DNA from: a virus
Direction: 5' to 3' (one strand)
Virus record (IMG/VR): IMGVR_UViG_3300009702_000408
Coordinates: 1-24,406 of that record
DNA length: 24,406 nt
The notes below the pieces were generated by a model that was not told the origin of the DNA, ran no database searches, and saw nothing but the letters and a program-made list of their open reading frames with translations. Both the position numbers and the translations under genes were made by a program. This document shows, piece after piece, positions 3,378-21,987 of the stretch (within the stretch, counting starts at the first letter, position 1; each line of letters starts with the position of its first letter).

Positions 3378-4966
3378 TTTGTTAACTCCTTTTTCATAAA
3401 AATTAATAGATCTGTCATACTCATTCCTTTATTTTTAAGAGATGGCATAACCATTAAATCCTCGATGGAATCTTGAACGATTAAATGATGAGCCAGGACG
3501 GTATTTTCCTGCCCTTGACGTTTTAACCGACGATTCAATTGATCGTACCATTCATAATTCCATGTTAACCCAAACCACACAAGAGTTCGTGACCCATATT
3601 GAAGATTGAGGCCGTGGCCCGCACTTGCCGGGTGTACGGCCATGACCTCAATCTCCTTACGGTTCCACTGGCGTTCCACTTCAATAGAGTCCAGGGTCCG
3701 TAATTGTTTGAATCTTTTTTTAAGACGTATTAAATCATGTTTGTAATTAAAAGCAACGAGCACTGGTTCACCTTGGGCCTCTGCAATAATATCCCCCAGT
3801 GCGTCGAGCTTTGCATTGTGCACCTCCTTCCATTGTTTTCCCGCCGCCCCATTATCTCGAAGAAAAAACTCATCTTTAAAACCAACATTTTGCATCATGC
3901 CGTCAAGATAAACGGCACCGTTACAAAACTGTAACATTTTATTCGAGAGTGCGGCGGCAGTCTTAGGGTGGATAACTTGGTCGCCATCAAAACAGACCAG
4001 AAAATCTTTTTTCAATTCATCATATTGTGAACGTGCTTTAGGCGGTAATTGTATATCGACATGGATAGGAAGCATTGGTGGCACATCCAGATAATCACCT
4101 TCCATCATGGACATGCATTTGTCTTCTACTTTTCTATAAATCTGAATTTTTGCGTCATCATTATCATTATCGACTACACGTTCGAGAAGTCTTGTTTTTT
4201 TATTTTTCATCCATCCGTTTGGGATGCGCGAGAAACCATCGAAACCGACATAAAAATATTTTTTTCTGAAAGAAGTAACTGTTTCGCCCAGGCGTTCGCC
4301 TCTGTCTAATAAGAATATTTGCGGATATAATTTTTCAATATGATTTGCCGCCGGAGTTCCAGTAAGTTCAACAATTCTTTCAGTCTGATAAATGACTTTC
4401 CTCAATGCTTTTGTACGATTAGAAGACCAATCGCCAAACCCGCTTGCTTCGTCGATGATAATATTATCGAAGCACCAATGGTTCGAGAGAACGCGAGCCA
4501 GGAGAGCAACCTGTTCCTGATTGATAACGTAGAAATGTGCCTGTTGTCGTAGAAGCGGTTTCAGCCATTTAATATAATGGTGGTATGTGATTTCATCAAT
4601 TGTCTTTTCTCGTTGTTTTATATCTTTGGCGGTGTCATCGTCACTTGGCTTGGAAACTTCCTCTCTGATAATTTTATTACATATTTTATTTTCCGGCGCG
4701 CCGGGCCAGTAGAGAGAAATATATTTTAAATGTTTCAGATGCTTCCATAGATAAGGCTCTTGTGGCCATACCATTTGACTCACACGGAGTGGAGCGATCA
4801 CAATCGTCATGTGGATCGCCCATTCTTGAATGAGAATATCAAGTGCGGTTAATGTGGAAACTGTTTTACCCAACCCTGGCATCATCCAAAGGGCACAGGT
4901 TTTATTTTCCAGAATCCAATCAACGGCCTTGCGTTGATATTCGTGAAGATCAGAAAAAGATTTCAT
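3374..4966 (-). CDS. SNF2-family DEAD-like helicase/ATPase
   Basis: A complete superfamily 2 helicase of the short phage SNF2 type. Visible motifs are the Q-like region HEYQRKAVDWI (8-18), Walker A MPGLGKT (29-35), motif Ia VIAPLRVSQMVW, Walker B IIDEASGFGD (170-179; DEAS rather than DEAH), motif III LTGTPAAN (201-208), motif V HPASAGHGLNLQYGS and motif VI DQLNRRLKRQGQ (about 475-486). These proteins translocate on double-stranded DNA and are common in phage replication cassettes with VRR-NUC and DUF2800. The start shares bases with the preceding stop (TGATG), showing translational coupling. Roles in replication restart or recombination are inferred. Confidence 0.93.
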   Translation of the reverse strand: MKSFSDLHEYQRKAVDWILENKTCALWMMPGLGKTVSTLTALDILIQEWAIHMTIVIAPLRVSQMVWPQEPYLWKHLKHLKYISLYWPGAPENKICNKIIREEVSKPSDDDTAKDIKQREKTIDEITYHHYIKWLKPLLRQQAHFYVINQEQVALLARVLSNHWCFDNIIIDEASGFGDWSSNRTKALRKVIYQTERIVELTGTPAANHIEKLYPQIFLLDRGERLGETVTSFRKKYFYVGFDGFSRIPNGWMKNKKTRLLERVVDNDNDDAKIQIYRKVEDKCMSMMEGDYLDVPPMLPIHVDIQLPPKARSQYDELKKDFLVCFDGDQVIHPKTAAALSNKMLQFCNGAVYLDGMMQNVGFKDEFFLRDNGAAGKQWKEVHNAKLDALGDIIAEAQGEPVLVAFNYKHDLIRLKKRFKQLRTLDSIEVERQWNRKEIEVMAVHPASAGHGLNLQYGSRTLVWFGLTWNYEWYDQLNRRLKRQGQENTVLAHHLIVQDSIEDLMVMPSLKNKGMSMTDLLIFMKKELTK

Positions 4967-5184
4967 CAGTCAATATAGACTTTTTCGCCGTGTTCTAGCA
5001 TATCCGCCTCAACGTGATCTGTTACAACTCCGTTCCCGGTTCGGAAATAAACATGATATTGTTCTTCGCCTCCAGACATATCCTCGATCCATCGGCGAGA
5101 AGAGACGGTGCCGTTGGCTCGATATAATTCTGAATGCACCTGTTCGCCTACTTCAAACTTCCAATTATAGATTAGCTTATTCAT
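4966..5184 (-). CDS. Small hypothetical protein (72 aa)
   Basis: The frame is open to 5535, but that stretch overlaps the DUF1353-type gene. The ATG at 5184 has AAGGAG with 6-base spacing and is the clear start. The protein begins MNKLIYNWKFEVGEQVHSEL and is beta-rich with VGEQVHSE-, RRWIEDMSGGEEQYHVYF- and DHVEADML-type stretches, a pattern resembling a small SH3-like or KOW-like barrel, though that is only an impression. The stop TGA overlaps the helicase start by one base, so the two are translated together. It might be an accessory factor of the helicase. Confidence 0.65.
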   Translation of the reverse strand: MNKLIYNWKFEVGEQVHSELYRANGTVSSRRWIEDMSGGEEQYHVYFRTGNGVVTDHVEADMLEHGEKVYID

Positions 5185-5620
5185 AAGACTCCTTCCGTTT
5201 TGGCGCGTAATATGTTTTTTTTGGTTTGGCTGTAGCCGCACCTTCGGCAAACAATCGAACCGATTTGTAAACATACCATGCTCGGATATGAGACATTCCA
5301 TCTTGTAAACAAATATCTCGGAGAGTTTCGTCTGCGATTTTACGATATTCACGTACATCAAGATGATGTTCTCGCATGAGTTGGTATAGCGCATCGTGAA
5401 CCAGAGAACCGCGCATGAAATTATTAGAATCAATCGTAGGCCCACTGGGCCCATCCCACGCATAGCCTGCACGAATGATAAGACTACCATCGGGGTATAA
5501 AATAATAAAAGGCGTGGAGATATCATTGCGATCATCTTGTTTAAATTTTTTTAAGATGATGGTGTATTTATACGCGAGTTGATATTTATATCCGCCCCGA
5601 TATGCAATTCTGTGGCTCAT
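5177..5620 (-). CDS. DUF1353-family phage protein
   Basis: The diagnostic block is YAWDGPSGPTIDS (residues 53-65) followed by NFMRGSLVHDALYQLMR (67-83), which I recognise as the DUF1353 core found in many phages and prophages. The function of the family is not established. The His-Asp of VHDALY and the nearby acidic residues could form a metal or catalytic site, but this is speculation. The C-terminus is basic (KPKKTYYAPKRK). It overlaps the VRR-NUC gene by 35 bases upstream and the 72-aa gene by 8 bases downstream. GAAAGGGA lies upstream of the ATG at 5620. Confidence 0.8.
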   Translation of the reverse strand: MSHRIAYRGGYKYQLAYKYTIILKKFKQDDRNDISTPFIILYPDGSLIIRAGYAWDGPSGPTIDSNNFMRGSLVHDALYQLMREHHLDVREYRKIADETLRDICLQDGMSHIRAWYVYKSVRLFAEGAATAKPKKTYYAPKRKESYE

Positions 5621-6412: not shown

Positions 6413-7468
6413 TTATTTTATTTCTGTTTTTATGATTGCCCGACCTAACATTTCAACAACTTGTGGTACCACGGCATTCCCTAACTGTTTAAGTCGGGCC
6501 GACCTGTTCTTGACTACGCTTGCAACCCGCGGGATATGGATAGGTTCTACGTCCCAATGTCCGTCCAACCTTCTGGATAACCCATCAACCATTCGACCCA
6601 TGCGGGATTGAGACTCCCAGCTTTCGGGTTCTGCATGTCGTGGACCTGCCTTCCCAATAATCCGTTTGTTGGAACATTTTGACAGCTTTTTGCTGTCCCG
6701 TCCTTGTGGTCCCTCTGCGTCGGCGTGGGCCACATGCGAACTGATCGGTTCAATGTTATTTGGACATGCTTCCCTGTGTTCGGATTGTATGCTCTCTCCC
6801 CCGGTTTTGCTGACTCTCCCTCCTTTGTAGTTAGGGTATTTAATAGTGGACCCTCCCCTGCTGTTTGCGCACTCGGCGTGGGCCACATCTTCTGCGCTAA
6901 CGCTTTCTCTAAATTTCTGTTTTTGTCGTTCAATCTGTTTGGGGTTATATTCCCCGTCAATCCCACTCTCATTGTGGGCCACAATCCAGACTCTTTTTCT
7001 TTCGTGCGGGGCCTGGACGGCGCAAGCTGGTATGTTGAATACCCGTGTTTCGTAACCTTCTTTTTCCAAATCAGAAACCGTGCGTCCGAGGCCCATTTCG
7101 TGATGAATAAAGCCCTGCACATTCTCGCCAATGACCCATCTGGGTTTGACTTCTCGTATAACTCGTAGCATTTCAGGCCAGAGGTCACGGTCGTCTGTAT
7201 GGCCTCTGCGCTTCCCAGCAACTGACCACGGCTGGCAGGGGAACCCTCCGCAAATAAGGTCGATTTCTGGGATTCCGTCGAGCCAAAAAGAACTCGGTTC
7301 CAATGTTCTGATGTCGTCATAAATTAAAACCTCCGGCCAATGTTTTTTCAAAACCAATTGCGCTTTTTTATCAGCTTCACAAAACGCAACTGTTTTCATT
7401 CCAGCGCGTTCTAACCCCAAACTGAATCCGCCGATGCCTGAAAAAAGATCAAGTATATTCATCCGCAT
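6413..7468 (-). CDS. C5 cytosine-specific DNA methyltransferase
   Basis: A complete methyltransferase of the Dcm type that moves a methyl group from S-adenosylmethionine to cytosine C5. Motif I is DLFSGIGGFSLGLERAG (7-23), motif IV GGFPCQPWS (74-82, catalytic C78), motif VI GENVQGF (114-120), motif VIII HERKRVWIVAH (155-165), and motifs IX-X end at RLKQLGNAVVPQ (325-336). The stretch of about 165-300 is the variable target-recognition region. No restriction endonuclease is adjacent, so it is probably an orphan enzyme that protects phage DNA from host restriction. GGAG lies 11 bases before the ATG at 7468; an ATG at 7462 is an alternative. The gene overlaps the end of the 78-aa gene by 10 bases. 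Its middle also encodes a second protein in the +1 frame. Confidence 0.95.
   Translation of the reverse strand: MRMNILDLFSGIGGFSLGLERAGMKTVAFCEADKKAQLVLKKHWPEVLIYDDIRTLEPSSFWLDGIPEIDLICGGFPCQPWSVAGKRRGHTDDRDLWPEMLRVIREVKPRWVIGENVQGFIHHEMGLGRTVSDLEKEGYETRVFNIPACAVQAPHERKRVWIVAHNESGIDGEYNPKQIERQKQKFRESVSAEDVAHAECANSRGGSTIKYPNYKGGRVSKTGGESIQSEHREACPNNIEPISSHVAHADAEGPQGRDSKKLSKCSNKRIIGKAGPRHAEPESWESQSRMGRMVDGLSRRLDGHWDVEPIHIPRVASVVKNRSARLKQLGNAVVPQVVEMLGRAIIKTEIK
6547..7320 (-). CDS. Nested overlapping gene: WPTP-repeat phage protein in the +1 frame of the methyltransferase
   Basis: A 257-codon frame lies wholly inside the methyltransferase gene, shifted by one base. Its ATG at 7320 has a GGAGG site at 7330-7334, spacing 9. 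The protein has SPASRGQLLGSAEA (27-40) and TSGLKCYELYEKS (46-58), then APSRPRTKEKESGLWPTM (100-117), two MWPTP blocks (145-149, 186-190), and a C-terminus with LNPAWVEWLMGYPEGWTD (237-254). I recognise this order, including repeated WPTP blocks and the LNPxWVEWLMGxPxGWTDL tail, from phage proteins that also occur as separate genes with no methyltransferase overlap; their function is not established to my knowledge. The Cys-Gln-Pro region of the methyltransferase read one base later gives the SPASRGQLLGS segment. Whether the protein is made here is an inference from the ribosome binding site, length and family likeness. Confidence 0.6.
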   Translation of the reverse strand: MTTSEHWNRVLFGSTESQKSTLFAEGSPASRGQLLGSAEAIQTTVTSGLKCYELYEKSNPDGSLARMCRALFITKWASDARFLIWKKKVTKHGYSTYQLAPSRPRTKEKESGLWPTMRVGLTGNITPNRLNDKNRNLEKALAQKMWPTPSAQTAGEGPLLNTLTTKEGESAKPGERAYNPNTGKHVQITLNRSVRMWPTPTQRDHKDGTAKSCQNVPTNGLLGRQVHDMQNPKAGSLNPAWVEWLMGYPEGWTDIGT

Positions 7469-16400: not shown

Positions 16401-17468
16401 TTACGCCGCCACTAAAACAATTGAAGTTTTCTGAATATACATCAATTGATAAAACGCTGGTTGATTGTCAAGAACTTGAGTACCGGCATGAGTGTGATCT
16501 GTCTGATTTGGCACACCGTGATTATGTGTACTGCCACTACCAACAGAAGATGTATTAGTATTTCCAGGTTGTACTTCGCTAAAAGTAAAACCTGTTTCAT
16601 TCGACGGTCTAAAATTTCTTTGTAAAAGTGGAACAGTGTGATTATGTGCTGGTAATTCCGCCACACTCAATGCATGGCCATTAACAAGGCCACCATGGTC
16701 ATGACTGCCAGCGGCGGCCATATTTGAGAATGTGACTGTTTGGGCGTCATTACCGCCCGTTGTGCCAAGACCTGCTTCATCGGTACCGCGCACAAATTTT
16801 CCTACAAGATTAATAGTCCCATTGTTACCGTCACAAAGATTATATCCGGCAGGAATATTCGCAACCAGCCCTGTCCATAATTTAATTGTACCAATGGGTT
16901 CCAAATTTGCGATCAAAGTTTCTATTTGATTTCTGGAATACAAACTTTGATTCACTCGTGAAGTTTCTTTATCGGCACTATTTTGTATTTTAAACGGTAC
17001 GCGAGAATTAAATTCAGTCTGAGATAATTCTACTCGTTTGGTATGGTCTCCTGCGCTAAATGCAAGCATGGCGGCCAGTGGAGAATACATTCCAAGAGTC
17101 GGTCGAGACGAAAAACTATATGGCATGTCCGCGCCAGGAAGTGCATCGGTTGGCCCAGTATCAGATGTCAATACTTTTGCAGGAATAGCTGGTAAATAGT
17201 TTGCATCTGCTTCTGCTTTACTATAAACATCGATCCCGGTACGCGCTGTCGCTTGCGTTGTGCCGCCCGTGCCGCCGCTTGCGACAGGGATAGGCGTCGT
17301 GGACCCTGGCAGTGTTCCATCTGCAATGCTATCTCCCAATAGCCTTATTTCTGCCATTATATCTCGAATGGTATCATTCACAACAGAAGGGACCATGCCC
17401 TCTGGCGCACCATTGGGAGGCGGGTTTGTGTTATTTGCGGCGTTGACGTCATATTTTGTATAAACCAT
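16401..17468 (-). CDS. Tail fibre protein with phage tail collar domain
   Basis: The C-terminal half contains the tail-collar domain: EPIGTIKLWTGLVANIPAGY then NLCDG (about 190-214), LVGKFVRGTDEAGLGTTGGND, SHDHGGLVNGHAL, LPAHNHTV, HNHGVPNQTDHTHAGT and QPAFYQLMYIQKT. The His pairs are spaced as in collar domains, where they bind metal ions in trimeric fibres. The N-terminal part begins with NAANNTNPPPNGAPEGMVPS, a virion-attachment type segment, and has PIPVASGGTGGTTQATARTG at 59-78. It is probably a short tail fibre or receptor-binding protein. The ATG shares the preceding TAATG overlap with the 968-aa gene, and AAAAGGA is upstream. Confidence 0.9.
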   Translation of the reverse strand: MVYTKYDVNAANNTNPPPNGAPEGMVPSVVNDTIRDIMAEIRLLGDSIADGTLPGSTTPIPVASGGTGGTTQATARTGIDVYSKAEADANYLPAIPAKVLTSDTGPTDALPGADMPYSFSSRPTLGMYSPLAAMLAFSAGDHTKRVELSQTEFNSRVPFKIQNSADKETSRVNQSLYSRNQIETLIANLEPIGTIKLWTGLVANIPAGYNLCDGNNGTINLVGKFVRGTDEAGLGTTGGNDAQTVTFSNMAAAGSHDHGGLVNGHALSVAELPAHNHTVPLLQRNFRPSNETGFTFSEVQPGNTNTSSVGSGSTHNHGVPNQTDHTHAGTQVLDNQPAFYQLMYIQKTSIVLVAA

Positions 17469-20374
17469 TATTGATCCTTTTGGTCGGTGAGGACATTGTT
17501 TATTGTATAATGTATAACTCGACGTGCTTCTTTACTATTATCTCCGACTTGTTTGTTGAGTAACATTCTGGCATATGCCGGGTCTGTCATAGATTGAGCA
17601 ACGATATCATTCAATCGTTTGTCTACACTCCCCCCTGTGAATTTGTTTACCACAAATTTTGAAAGTGTAAATAACCCACGGCCTTTTGCTATACCATATA
17701 TAGAAGCAAATATATTAGCCACTTTCTGAGATTCGACTGTTAATTCTCTGATTATTGAACCACTATTGGAAACGGCTCCAGCAACTTGTGACGACTCTAT
17801 TATCCTCTTACGAACTTCTGAAAGTGCTTTAATATCAGATTTTTTGAAAAGACGACCCATAATACTTTTAGTCACAGGATCATTCAGAATTTCATTTAAC
17901 TTAGCGGGTTTTACTTCACCTTCGATTAACTTGACGTTATTAATTATTTTTTTTCGTAATGCTTCTGATACAGCGGCTTTTAATCCAGCACGAGCCTGTG
18001 GATCTTTTTTAGTTGCCACAAATAATTTATCGAACTGGGTTTTACCAGTGGGGGAAGATAAAATCCCGTCAAGAGTTCTTACTGGATCATCCATTTTGAC
18101 TACTTTTCTAAAAGCTTTTGCGGCCTCTGATTTATCGGTTTCTTTAAGAGCTTTTTGTAAACTGATTACTTCGTCACCAAGTTGATTCACTCTGTTTAAT
18201 CCATTTTCAAGTCCTTTAGCGAAGTCTTCCACTTGTTTAGCGGCTTGTGGGAAGGCATTCAGATTATCGGCATTGGCTTTCTGAAATTGTCTGACAATAG
18301 GAGCAGATTGTTTTGCATTTTTACCCTGCAATGCTATACCAAGGTCTTCGACAATAAAATCCTGCACGGCTTGTCTGCCAGCCTGTATGGCTTTTGCTTT
18401 GCCTATCTGAGAAGTTCCAGAAGAAGGGATATCAAACGAATCGATAATCCGGGATAATTGCTGAGCGGATTCTTCCGCTCCCCCAGTTCTGTTTGACAGT
18501 TGCAGAAATTGAGCCGCAGTGGATGTCGGAGTTTCTTTAAATCTACGGACACTTTTTTTAAACTCTTTTCCCACACCTTCCCCGAACAACGGAGCAAATT
18601 TATTTTTGAAAAATGATACTGCATCTTTAGCTCTGAGTCCGACCTGATCTCCTCTCTCGGCTAAAATGTCGGCCTGTTTATTGATAAAACGCCGAATTTG
18701 TTTTAATTTCAACACTTGACTTCCGTCACCTGAAATACGAGCTTTTTCAATAGCGTCTGACACTGAAGGGCGTAAATCATTAATTTCTTTAAATACCGGA
18801 TTACGTCTTGTAAAAAGCTGGGCACCGTCTTTTCCAAGAATAGGTGTGACACCATCTGCGGCGACAGCGGGTTTTTCAGTGAAACTTCTCAAAGTTTCTA
18901 CAATATCACTATTCAGAAATTTTTTACCAGAAAGATCGCCTGCACTGGTTGGTCGAAATCCTTTAAGCAAATCAAGGGTATCGTTGACATCGGTTTCCAC
19001 AACGCCTTGTGGATCAATGGCTTTAAATTTCTTATTTTTGAGGATTGTTTTCTGTGTTAACACCTCTTTGGCTACTTTGTCGATCTCTTTGCTTGCTTGA
19101 TTACGACCACCTGCGGACCCTGGAACAGAAGCAAGGAGGTTATCAACTTCGTTTTGTGCCACATCCTGCGCTCTCTGAGCCGTCCTGAGAGCGTCCTCAC
19201 CGGCTTTTCCGATCAATGCATCTCTTTGTTCAGCAAATGCTTTTATATCAGCAGGATCGCCCTCAGATTTCAGTGTATTCTGCACTTCCAATGATAAAGC
19301 AGTTTTGTTTTCTTTAGCACGAGCGGCAAGAGTAGGATCGCGCATAGCCCCTTTCTCAAAACCTAAAAGTCCAGTATCACCTGTTATCGCTCCTGTAGTA
19401 GGTTTAAATCCCGGAACTTCATTACGGGCCAGTCCTTTTGTAATGTCATTAGCGACTTCAGATGGTGGCTTTTGAACAAATTCCTGTAATTTTTCAGCGA
19501 CTTGGCTTTCGAGGCCTTTTTTGGTAAAAGGACGGAGACCAACTTTTATTGATCGTAAAATAGCGGCCAAACTATTGGCCATACTTCCAATTGACCCACT
19601 TTCAAATCCTGTCTGAACTCGACTTTGTATCGGTGACATTTTTCGACCTGTAACCGATTCAACAATAGATTGATTTTGTGTAGGGTCAGATGCAATGACA
19701 TCTGCCGCAGAGGTTCCGGCTAGATTTGCGAGAGCTTGCCCTTTTCCCGGTACAATATCATTGATCCCTTTAATAGTTTTTCCAAGAAAAGTTCCCCCTT
19801 TGGCAACAGTCGCAGATGGAACACCAAATTGTAATATTCCTCCACCGACATCGCCTGCTGTTGAACCACCTTTAATTCGAGGAATACTTCTGCCAATATC
19901 TCCAATAGTTTTGACCAGCCCTAAAATTGGGTTTTTAAAAAGATCTTCATTTGAAATATTATCACTTGCCAATCCTCGAATAATATCCTGTGGCGATGTG
20001 AGCAATCCTCGTCCAAGACCGGTAATTCCTTTCAACGCGCTTTCAGCCATGATAGCTCCTGGATTTGGGAGATTTTGCAGACTATTCATAACTTGTTGAA
20101 ATGTAGAATCATTGGGATTTGAAGGTGTTTCCATCGGTCTTGGCAAAGTCAGTGTAATATTTCCATTATCTTTCGACATACCAACGCCTGCAAAAGGATC
20201 GTTTGCCTGTTGCCCCGGTGGAGTCAGGTCCGAAGCAACAGGCGGTGCGTCACTAGGCGTGGCCGCACTGGAATTTGGTGCGCCGGTTTCTCCGGCGAGA
20301 GCCGTAGAAATTTCTGCGTCCGTAAAATCATCTGGAAAATTAAATGTCTTCCCTTCAAATTGAACAGTTTTCAT
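17468..20374 (-). CDS. Large internal virion/DNA ejection-type protein (968 aa)
   Basis: The protein opens with VQFEGKTFNFPDDFTDAEIS, a motif at the start of many podophage internal or ejection proteins (FPDDxxDxEIxxAL). It then has a Pro-rich disordered stretch (about 32-62), a glycine-rich hydrophobic region around 110-220, and a very long alpha-helical part rich in Ala, Lys, Gln and Asp. I see no lysozyme or transglycosylase motif. Proteins like this pass through the tail to build the channel for DNA entry. It is followed by the collar fibre with a TAATG overlap and preceded by the 537-aa gene, also with TAATG. AGGTTAAATTA precedes the ATG. Confidence 0.65.
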   Translation of the reverse strand: MKTVQFEGKTFNFPDDFTDAEISTALAGETGAPNSSAATPSDAPPVASDLTPPGQQANDPFAGVGMSKDNGNITLTLPRPMETPSNPNDSTFQQVMNSLQNLPNPGAIMAESALKGITGLGRGLLTSPQDIIRGLASDNISNEDLFKNPILGLVKTIGDIGRSIPRIKGGSTAGDVGGGILQFGVPSATVAKGGTFLGKTIKGINDIVPGKGQALANLAGTSAADVIASDPTQNQSIVESVTGRKMSPIQSRVQTGFESGSIGSMANSLAAILRSIKVGLRPFTKKGLESQVAEKLQEFVQKPPSEVANDITKGLARNEVPGFKPTTGAITGDTGLLGFEKGAMRDPTLAARAKENKTALSLEVQNTLKSEGDPADIKAFAEQRDALIGKAGEDALRTAQRAQDVAQNEVDNLLASVPGSAGGRNQASKEIDKVAKEVLTQKTILKNKKFKAIDPQGVVETDVNDTLDLLKGFRPTSAGDLSGKKFLNSDIVETLRSFTEKPAVAADGVTPILGKDGAQLFTRRNPVFKEINDLRPSVSDAIEKARISGDGSQVLKLKQIRRFINKQADILAERGDQVGLRAKDAVSFFKNKFAPLFGEGVGKEFKKSVRRFKETPTSTAAQFLQLSNRTGGAEESAQQLSRIIDSFDIPSSGTSQIGKAKAIQAGRQAVQDFIVEDLGIALQGKNAKQSAPIVRQFQKANADNLNAFPQAAKQVEDFAKGLENGLNRVNQLGDEVISLQKALKETDKSEAAKAFRKVVKMDDPVRTLDGILSSPTGKTQFDKLFVATKKDPQARAGLKAAVSEALRKKIINNVKLIEGEVKPAKLNEILNDPVTKSIMGRLFKKSDIKALSEVRKRIIESSQVAGAVSNSGSIIRELTVESQKVANIFASIYGIAKGRGLFTLSKFVVNKFTGGSVDKRLNDIVAQSMTDPAYARMLLNKQVGDNSKEARRVIHYTINNVLTDQKDQ

Positions 20375-21987
20375 TAATTTAACCTCACAGGTCGGCCTGA
20401 TTTATCTCGACCAAATTTTATTACTTGTGGCTGAGACGATCCACCTGTAGGCGGCGTATTTCCGCTTGATCTAATAAATGTCATCGCTTGATCGCTCACT
20501 CTTTTTAATATTTCTTCCTGACTTTGTGATGGTTTAAATGGAAATCGTCCTGTGCTAATATTTTTCCCGGTCTTTCTTGTTTTTTTTACGGTTCGGTTCA
20601 GCAGACTTCCAAGAGTATTCGCAACCGTTGCCGGGTCCCCGCCGGAGCCAACAATGTCAAGGGCGATCTGGAAATCTCTATCAGATAATCCTCGCCCAGT
20701 TTGGCCATTCAACGCCGCGATGGTAAAAGCCAATTCCAGTGTCGCACTTCTAAGTTCCGCGGAATTTTTTGCCAGTGACTCTAATTTATTTTGTTGAGAC
20801 TTACTGAGTGTTTTTGAAGGAGCTTGACCTAATCCAAGGTCTAAAAAACTTGAAAGACTTGTAACCCCTGTCGTAATATTATTGACCTTTTCAGCAAGCC
20901 CACCAGTAAACGTAGACGCGGCTGGAGATTTTCGTAGAATGTCCAGAATATTACTCGCATTGACACTTAAATTATCGACTTGATTCACCGTAGTATTAAA
21001 GTCATCTTGGGCAAGTTGAGATCTTTTCGCTAGTGCTTTTTCTGTTCCTATAGGAACTGCATCAATACTATTGCCTGGGTCTATTCTTTCCTTAAAAGTA
21101 TTTAACTCGTCGCCGTTAAACACATGAGCCTTAACAAAATTTCCTTCCGGGTCTAGTTCTGTAACATCGAAAAATTTTGTACTGGGTTTCCCTTCCGAAC
21201 CGACAGTGGGTGTTCTTTTTCTAAAACCTGTTCTGTTTGCACGTTCTATGTCAGCAGGATCATTTTGATTAAATGAACGGATATTGCCATTTTCGTCAGA
21301 AAGTAAAACGGAATTTTGTTTTTCAACAGTCAGTTTTTTTAATGTGCTCCCATTGGCATTTGCATCAGCGATTACTTTTGGGTCTGCCAGGTCTACAAAA
21401 GTTCGTGTGCCATCCTTATTAATCTGTTCGCCTAATTCAGGTTTATTCTTACGAGGATTTTTAGCTATAACCATATTCTTGTTGTTTAATAATACCGCTC
21501 CAGGCCCTAATGTAGTTTTTTTTCGACCGAGTATAGCTTTTATAACAAGACTACTTTCTTTTTCGGGGAGAGATCGCAAAACAGCGCCTTGCTCACTCGT
21601 AAGCCCCAAGGCTTTTATATTTTGGTCAGATAAAACACCTAACCTCATTTTTTCTTTTTTATTTTCAGTGTTAAAAAGATTACTTATCCCAGTCCCCACC
21701 GCAATACCTCCCACGGGGCCAAGGAAAGGACTAGCGGCTAATCCTGCGAGAGAACCGGCAATAGCGGCCCCCGGAGAATCCGGTAATAAACTTTTTAAAC
21801 TGTCAAGAATCCCTGAACTTTTAGGTGTTGCGACAGGAATATTTGGCATAACAGGAATATTTATTGCGGCAGGAGTATTTACAGCCGGAAGATTTGTAAT
21901 CATGTCCGGGTTGACCCCTGGCGCGGCATTTACATTTGCATTTCCAAGTGCCAATAATCTTAAAATATCATTTTGTGGGCTTGTCAT
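20374..21987 (-). CDS. Internal virion-type protein (537 aa)
   Basis: The first 60 residues are Asn/Pro/Ala-rich and disordered. A glycine-zipper-like hydrophobic segment follows, GAAIAGSLAGLAASPFLGPV then GGIAVGTGI (about 73-101), which could insert in membranes. The remainder is soluble and beta/helical, with GRKKTTLGPGAVLLNNKNMV, then ending in a basic tail (QPQVIKFGRDKSGRPVRLN). The hydrophobic segment and the position between two other candidate ejection proteins suggest a protein that helps form the channel through the host envelope. I cannot assign a named family. The ATG has TAGGAAAATATT upstream. Confidence 0.6.
   Translation of the reverse strand: MTSPQNDILRLLALGNANVNAAPGVNPDMITNLPAVNTPAAINIPVMPNIPVATPKSSGILDSLKSLLPDSPGAAIAGSLAGLAASPFLGPVGGIAVGTGISNLFNTENKKEKMRLGVLSDQNIKALGLTSEQGAVLRSLPEKESSLVIKAILGRKKTTLGPGAVLLNNKNMVIAKNPRKNKPELGEQINKDGTRTFVDLADPKVIADANANGSTLKKLTVEKQNSVLLSDENGNIRSFNQNDPADIERANRTGFRKRTPTVGSEGKPSTKFFDVTELDPEGNFVKAHVFNGDELNTFKERIDPGNSIDAVPIGTEKALAKRSQLAQDDFNTTVNQVDNLSVNASNILDILRKSPAASTFTGGLAEKVNNITTGVTSLSSFLDLGLGQAPSKTLSKSQQNKLESLAKNSAELRSATLELAFTIAALNGQTGRGLSDRDFQIALDIVGSGGDPATVANTLGSLLNRTVKKTRKTGKNISTGRFPFKPSQSQEEILKRVSDQAMTFIRSSGNTPPTGGSSQPQVIKFGRDKSGRPVRLN

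Follow-up and report, generated by a model that had tools for sequence, protein, structure and literature searches.

The C5-cytosine DNA methyltransferase (MTase) gene of a 24.4-kb viral contig (IMG/VR record IMGVR_UViG_3300009702_000408, positions 1 to 24,406; hereafter the window) contains a second open reading frame (ORF) in its +1 frame, which, judged by its conservation and substitution patterns, is a real and selected gene. The protein it encodes is probably the recognition and motif IX subunit of a heterodimeric C5-cytosine MTase, with one stretch of DNA specifying two proteins.

Organisation of the overlapping genes

Both ORFs are located on the minus strand. The MTase ORF (6413..7468; 351 aa), the putative large subunit with motifs I-VIII and X, matches PF00145 (E 8.8e-51). 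The nested ORF (6547..7320, minus strand; 257 aa), the proposed small subunit, lies wholly within it in the +1 frame, and starts with an ATG (7318..7320, minus strand) preceded by a GGAGG Shine-Dalgarno (SD) sequence (7330..7334, minus strand) at a distance of 9 nt, as the original prediction of a 257-codon gene with its own ribosome binding site had it. The predicted sequence features are likewise present, with LWPTM, two MWPTP blocks and the tail LNPAWVEWLMGYPEGWTD in the nested protein, while the MTase frame retains FPCQPWS and LGNAVVPQ across the overlap. The description of a long open frame in AT-rich DNA holds for the length of the frame (258 codons, versus a mean of 89 after shuffling) but overstates the base composition, the GC content of the gene being 48 %. 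The phrog_1008 profile, whose family carries the label 'DNA methyltransferase', matches residues 14-255 of the nested protein (E 1.3e-30). No match of any kind was obtained in Pfam or NCBIfam, and no sequence relative was found in the PDB.

Openness and selection of the +1 frame

The codons of the MTase were shuffled among synonyms and the longest +1 open run was compared with the real one. None of 300 shuffles of the window gene reached its 258 codons. Among the 243 genes analysed, the +1 frame was unusually open (p<=0.05) in 234 and the +2 frame in just eleven, while among 49 control C5 MTases that lack this nested family only two reached this level for the +1 frame.

As the third codon position of the MTase is the second position of the nested ORF, constraint on the latter can be read from MTase codons. 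Among conserved four-fold degenerate MTase codons, third-position entropy is 1.89 bits outside the overlap and 1.26 bits inside it, where highly divergent genes share the same individual codons (GGT in 93/93, GTT in 58/58 and GCT in 119/122 cases). In a set of loci selected on the upstream MTase sequence alone (described below), the corresponding values are 1.85 bits upstream, 1.29 over motifs VI-VIII, 0.37 over the nested tail and 1.73 downstream. Variation at MTase third positions resumes directly past the nested stop codon, while the part of the overlap over PCQPFS shows weak +1 constraint. In the recognition zone, the third position of the nested frame evolves faster than its second in 25:5 independent pairs on the MTase alignment and 36:0 on the nested alignment; alignment of this variable zone is imperfect, but the two approaches agree. 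In the flanks the ordinary MTase pattern holds, the reverse of that in the recognition zone (28:0 independent pairs). Furthermore, a start codon with an SD sequence occurs 25-45 codons before a conserved TSG motif in 155/206 genes, against 65.6 expected. The entropy and codon-position patterns thus show constraint on the catalytic zone in both frames, whereas the recognition zone is mainly under +1 constraint. The synonymous-site constraint anticipated for a dual-coding gene is therefore visible, with MTase third positions frozen in the overlap and the recognition zone evolving as +1 coding sequence.

Prevalence of the nested arrangement

Searches with the nested protein matched 91 phage records and more than 590 IMG/VR stretches. 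Of the 169 loci examined, all chosen by their match to the nested protein, 167 have the nested family in +1 overlap with an MTase, the remaining two representing a withdrawn copy of the window or a nested ORF running into the MTase C-terminus. Because these loci had been picked by the nested frame, an unbiased set of 80 further loci was chosen solely on the first 56 MTase residues, almost all of which lie upstream of the overlap. A nested ORF matching the profile was found in 77/80 of these, the three exceptions being short or cut at contig ends. The overlap often extends over 600-1000 nt, and the nested arrangement appears to be near-universal in this phage clade on these sequence comparisons. 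The nested ORF also occurs within the Escherichia coli prophage MTases inspected, in N15 gp58 and in phage K1ind2, where the 'Mte8-like' ORF28 belongs to the same family.

The original prediction held that proteins with the WPTP architecture exist as separate genes without MTase overlap. The search for standalone homologues covered phages, plasmids, IMG/VR and five bacterial phyla, and no independent gene of the nested family was found among approximately 250 viral and prokaryotic loci or the matches from approximately 1,790 bacterial genomes. Searching the latter genomes, representing the five phyla, with the nested profile recovered 68 nested ORFs in +1 overlap with an MTase and three same-frame fusions. 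Since every bacterial-genome match overlaps or is fused to an MTase, the existence of standalone genes is unsupported, and 'separate' database entries probably reflect gene callers choosing the +1 ORF. The arrangements other than nesting, found mainly in actinophages, comprise a second half-ORF or an in-frame part of a C5 MTase.

Several loci show irregularities of copy number, annotation or frame. The chromosome of an uncultured Roseovarius (metagenome-assembled genome OX638333.1; L123-L125, L127 and L128) carries five identical 6.7-kb MTase loci, several of them approximately 46-47 kb apart and near the record ends, which may represent repeated prophage copies or assembly of a phage concatemer. 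In E. coli NZ_CP041110.1 (L272, 2317-3528), the public annotation splits the MTase into two 'incomplete' pseudogene pieces, although both the MTase frame (404 codons) and the nested frame (343 codons) remain open there, which points to mishandling of such genes by annotation pipelines. The MTase frame is broken or shifted with the nested frame open, or the nested frame enters motif X, in L018, L024, L054, L143 and L204, which could be due to sequencing errors or real state transitions. The MTases of phages Lc-Nu and Harrison (L259 and L260) are very short (260 aa), with the recognition zone almost gone, and in their nested ORFs most WPTP blocks have been lost, whereas the N-terminal domain and tail persist.

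Distribution of MTase motifs and domains between the two proteins

The profile of the MTase frame aligns with M.HhaI at residues 12-175 only (motifs I-VIII; E 3e-35), and weakly at motif X (residues 299-319). The AlphaFold2 model of this protein, which matches the M.HhaI fold with a Z of 24.8 over the whole model, is of high confidence for the greater part of the catalytic region (motifs I-VIII at residues 1-167; 6968..7468, minus strand), where pLDDT is mostly 80-98 but falls to 61 around residues 81-90. Confidence is high again for motif X (LGNAVVPQ) and the C-terminal helices, which lie past the nested stop (6419..6505, minus strand). The recognition zone between them (residues 188-320; 6509..6907, minus strand) is predicted to be disordered (pLDDT mostly <50), and it is the +1 frame that the codon-position test marks as constrained here. 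Among nested-class genes, motif IX could be detected in the MTase frame in 0/245 by a strict pattern and 3/245 by a loose one, compared to 22/49 (strict) and 33/51 (loose) of the control C5 MTases.

Confidence in the nested model is low overall (mean pLDDT 65, pTM 0.32); the parts predicted with confidence are residues 38-105, residues 161-190 and a tail helix (239-246). The N-terminal domain (residues 38-105; 7006..7209, minus strand; helix-helix-strand-strand, pLDDT about 80-91 over most of its length) lies over MTase motifs IV-VIII, where the MTase third positions are frozen, while residues 161-190 (6751..6840, minus strand; pLDDT 86-93) form a module of the WPTP region. Comparison of this weak model against known folds (Foldseek, VIA) gave nothing above background, which does not imply a novel fold. 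By position and profile homology, the tail LNPAWVEWLMGYPEGWTD (6559..6612, minus strand) corresponds to C5-MTase motif IX. In hhalign comparisons, which are single comparisons rather than calibrated database searches, it aligned with the actinophage IX-X module at 97.4 %, that module with the canonical bacterial motif IX-X at 91.7 %, and the tail directly with canonical motif IX at a modest 57 %, in the correct register. The actinophage IX-X profile recovered no methylase from the PDB. Taken together, the pattern counts and profile comparisons place motif IX in the +1 frame and not in frame 0.

Split and fused forms in actinophages

Among mycobacteriophages and their allies (577 phage records), the same WPTP...xEWMMGxPxGW module is joined to motif X. 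The catalytic ORF of Eagle, Vash and DaVinci stops just after motif VIII, with WPTP, IX and X on the +1 ORF, whereas frame 0 carries the fused motifs IX and X in Batiatus, MidnightRain and Graduation. Across the scorable loci, in numbers that depend on the queries used, motif IX was in the +1 frame with X in frame 0 in 148 cases, both were in the +1 frame in nineteen and both in frame 0 in three. As motif IX and the +1 WPTP ORF are separated in MidnightRain and Graduation, a motif IX role alone cannot account for the +1 frame. The nested, split and fused states could all have arisen from a monomeric ancestor if compensating frameshifts occurred around its recognition domain.

A proposed two-subunit methyltransferase and its alternatives

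Under the proposed mechanism, frame 0 would yield a large subunit in which a long flexible linker connects catalytic motifs I-VIII with motif X, while the +1 ORF would be translated from its own SD and ATG inside the MTase gene to give the small subunit. The N-terminal domain of the latter is perhaps involved in docking, the WPTP region is a probable target-recognition domain and the tail would provide a motif IX-like element. The small protein, once made, is expected to bind the large one and set its specificity, and the assembled subunits would methylate and so mark phage DNA. Among the explanations that had been put forward for the overlap, a partner of the MTase is the best. Whether the large phage C5 MTase clade as a whole is an obligate two-frame enzyme, its recognition half having been relocated to the +1 frame of the gene for its catalytic half and passing between nested, split and fused states, is an evenly balanced proposition; with the recognition half so placed, one DNA stretch would encode both halves of one enzyme.

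Other readings of the nested ORF are less probable. The protein could be real but independent in function, for example an anti-restriction or host-takeover protein that merely shares the MTase DNA, and the separate start signal and an N-terminal domain without known relatives would suit such a role. This is nevertheless rather unlikely, considering that the family never occurs away from a C5 MTase, that in actinophages it is linked to motif X or forms part of the MTase itself and that the nested protein carries the motif IX missing from frame 0. Less likely again is programmed +1 frameshifting near motif VIII, which would attach the WPTP region to the catalytic domain in one product instead of yielding a separate protein. 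The layout of Eagle, Vash and DaVinci is compatible with it, since a single shift there would restore the whole enzyme, but genes of the window's class show +1 constraint well upstream of motif VIII, their nested ORF has a start codon and SD sequence, and a shifted product would be devoid of motif X.

That the +1 ORF is only a shadow of constraint on the MTase frame is scarcely credible. Some nested motifs do overlie conserved MTase motifs, and the stretch over PCQPFS is weakly constrained, yet the frozen third positions and the codon-shuffle and codon-position tests oppose this explanation, and the 49 control C5 MTases lack such open frames. It was rejected on these grounds. The original view that the frame is no chance shadow is thus borne out, as is the claim of two conserved proteins from the same DNA, given the conservation in relatives and the selection in both frames.

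Comparison with known systems

EcoHK31I, which recognises YGGCCR, and M.EaeI are both two-subunit C5 methyltransferases, and the small (beta) subunit of EcoHK31I is encoded within the alpha (large-subunit) gene in a different frame. The window resembles it in having the second polypeptide in another frame of the same gene. A passage of PMC3404938 citing Lee, Kam and Shaw (1995) describes M.EcoHK31I as having motifs I-VIII and X on the large subunit and only motif IX on the small polypeptide, and in the literature its predicted recognition domain is assigned to the large subunit. The large subunit of the window similarly has motifs I-VIII and X without IX, which is on the second polypeptide, a likeness of motif layout. 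The two differ in that the evidence places the recognition domain of the window in the +1 frame, and in that EcoHK31I forms part of a restriction-modification system (PMC6174562), whereas no restriction gene is recognised in the window phage. The EcoHK31I gene was not among the E. coli hits inspected, the loci inspected there being prophages.

Other split or internally coding genes show different layouts. M.AquI (CYCGRG) is a C5 methyltransferase split between motifs VIII and IX into two polypeptides, with IX and X on the small subunit. The actinophage form (Eagle gp78/gp77) is split at the same point, with IX and X on the +1 ORF. Motif X of the window differs in being located in frame 0, on the large subunit, apart from motif IX, and the small ORF is fully nested. 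The ShiLan-type hidden HNH homing endonuclease is also a second protein encoded out of frame within a phage methylase gene, but there a mobile insertion carries the HNH nuclease. No such insertion was found in the window, where the overlap covers the methylase's own motifs and is ancestral to the family, and the nested protein is no nuclease by Pfam. The nested family of the window protein also includes members of phrog_1008 and, in a Paenibacillus phage, the 'g50 internal gene' (Redbud gp51); these are single cases noticed by annotators and labelled 'DNA methyltransferase' or hypothetical, with family-wide dual coding unrecognised.

The two-subunit arrangement is thus known in kind from EcoHK31I, while its pervasiveness in phages looks unreported, no published account of the +1 overlap in phage MTases being found among open-access papers. 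Beyond the EcoHK31I precedent, the recognition zone, and not just motif IX, appears to lie in the +1 frame. The nested ORF is long, ancient and widespread among dsDNA phages, and has for the most part escaped notice since annotation tends to retain one frame. Many phage 'cytosine methyltransferases' that were cloned alone, or whose +1 frame was lost to codon optimisation, may therefore be inactive or misjudged. The nested, split and fused states of one module make the long-standing question of the origin and separation of overlapping genes directly testable, and a split enzyme of this type could be of use in engineered methylation.

Genomic context

Matches to phage helicase, DNA polymerase, exonuclease, tail fibre, DNA ejection and virion structural families occur on the same strand over positions 3374-24370 of the window, while the 968-aa and 537-aa ORFs at 17468-21987 have no PHROG match. 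A second pair of long ORFs (4966-5535 and 5177-5620), also on the minus strand, overlaps by 359 nt, although the real start of the longer one may be an internal ATG further downstream.
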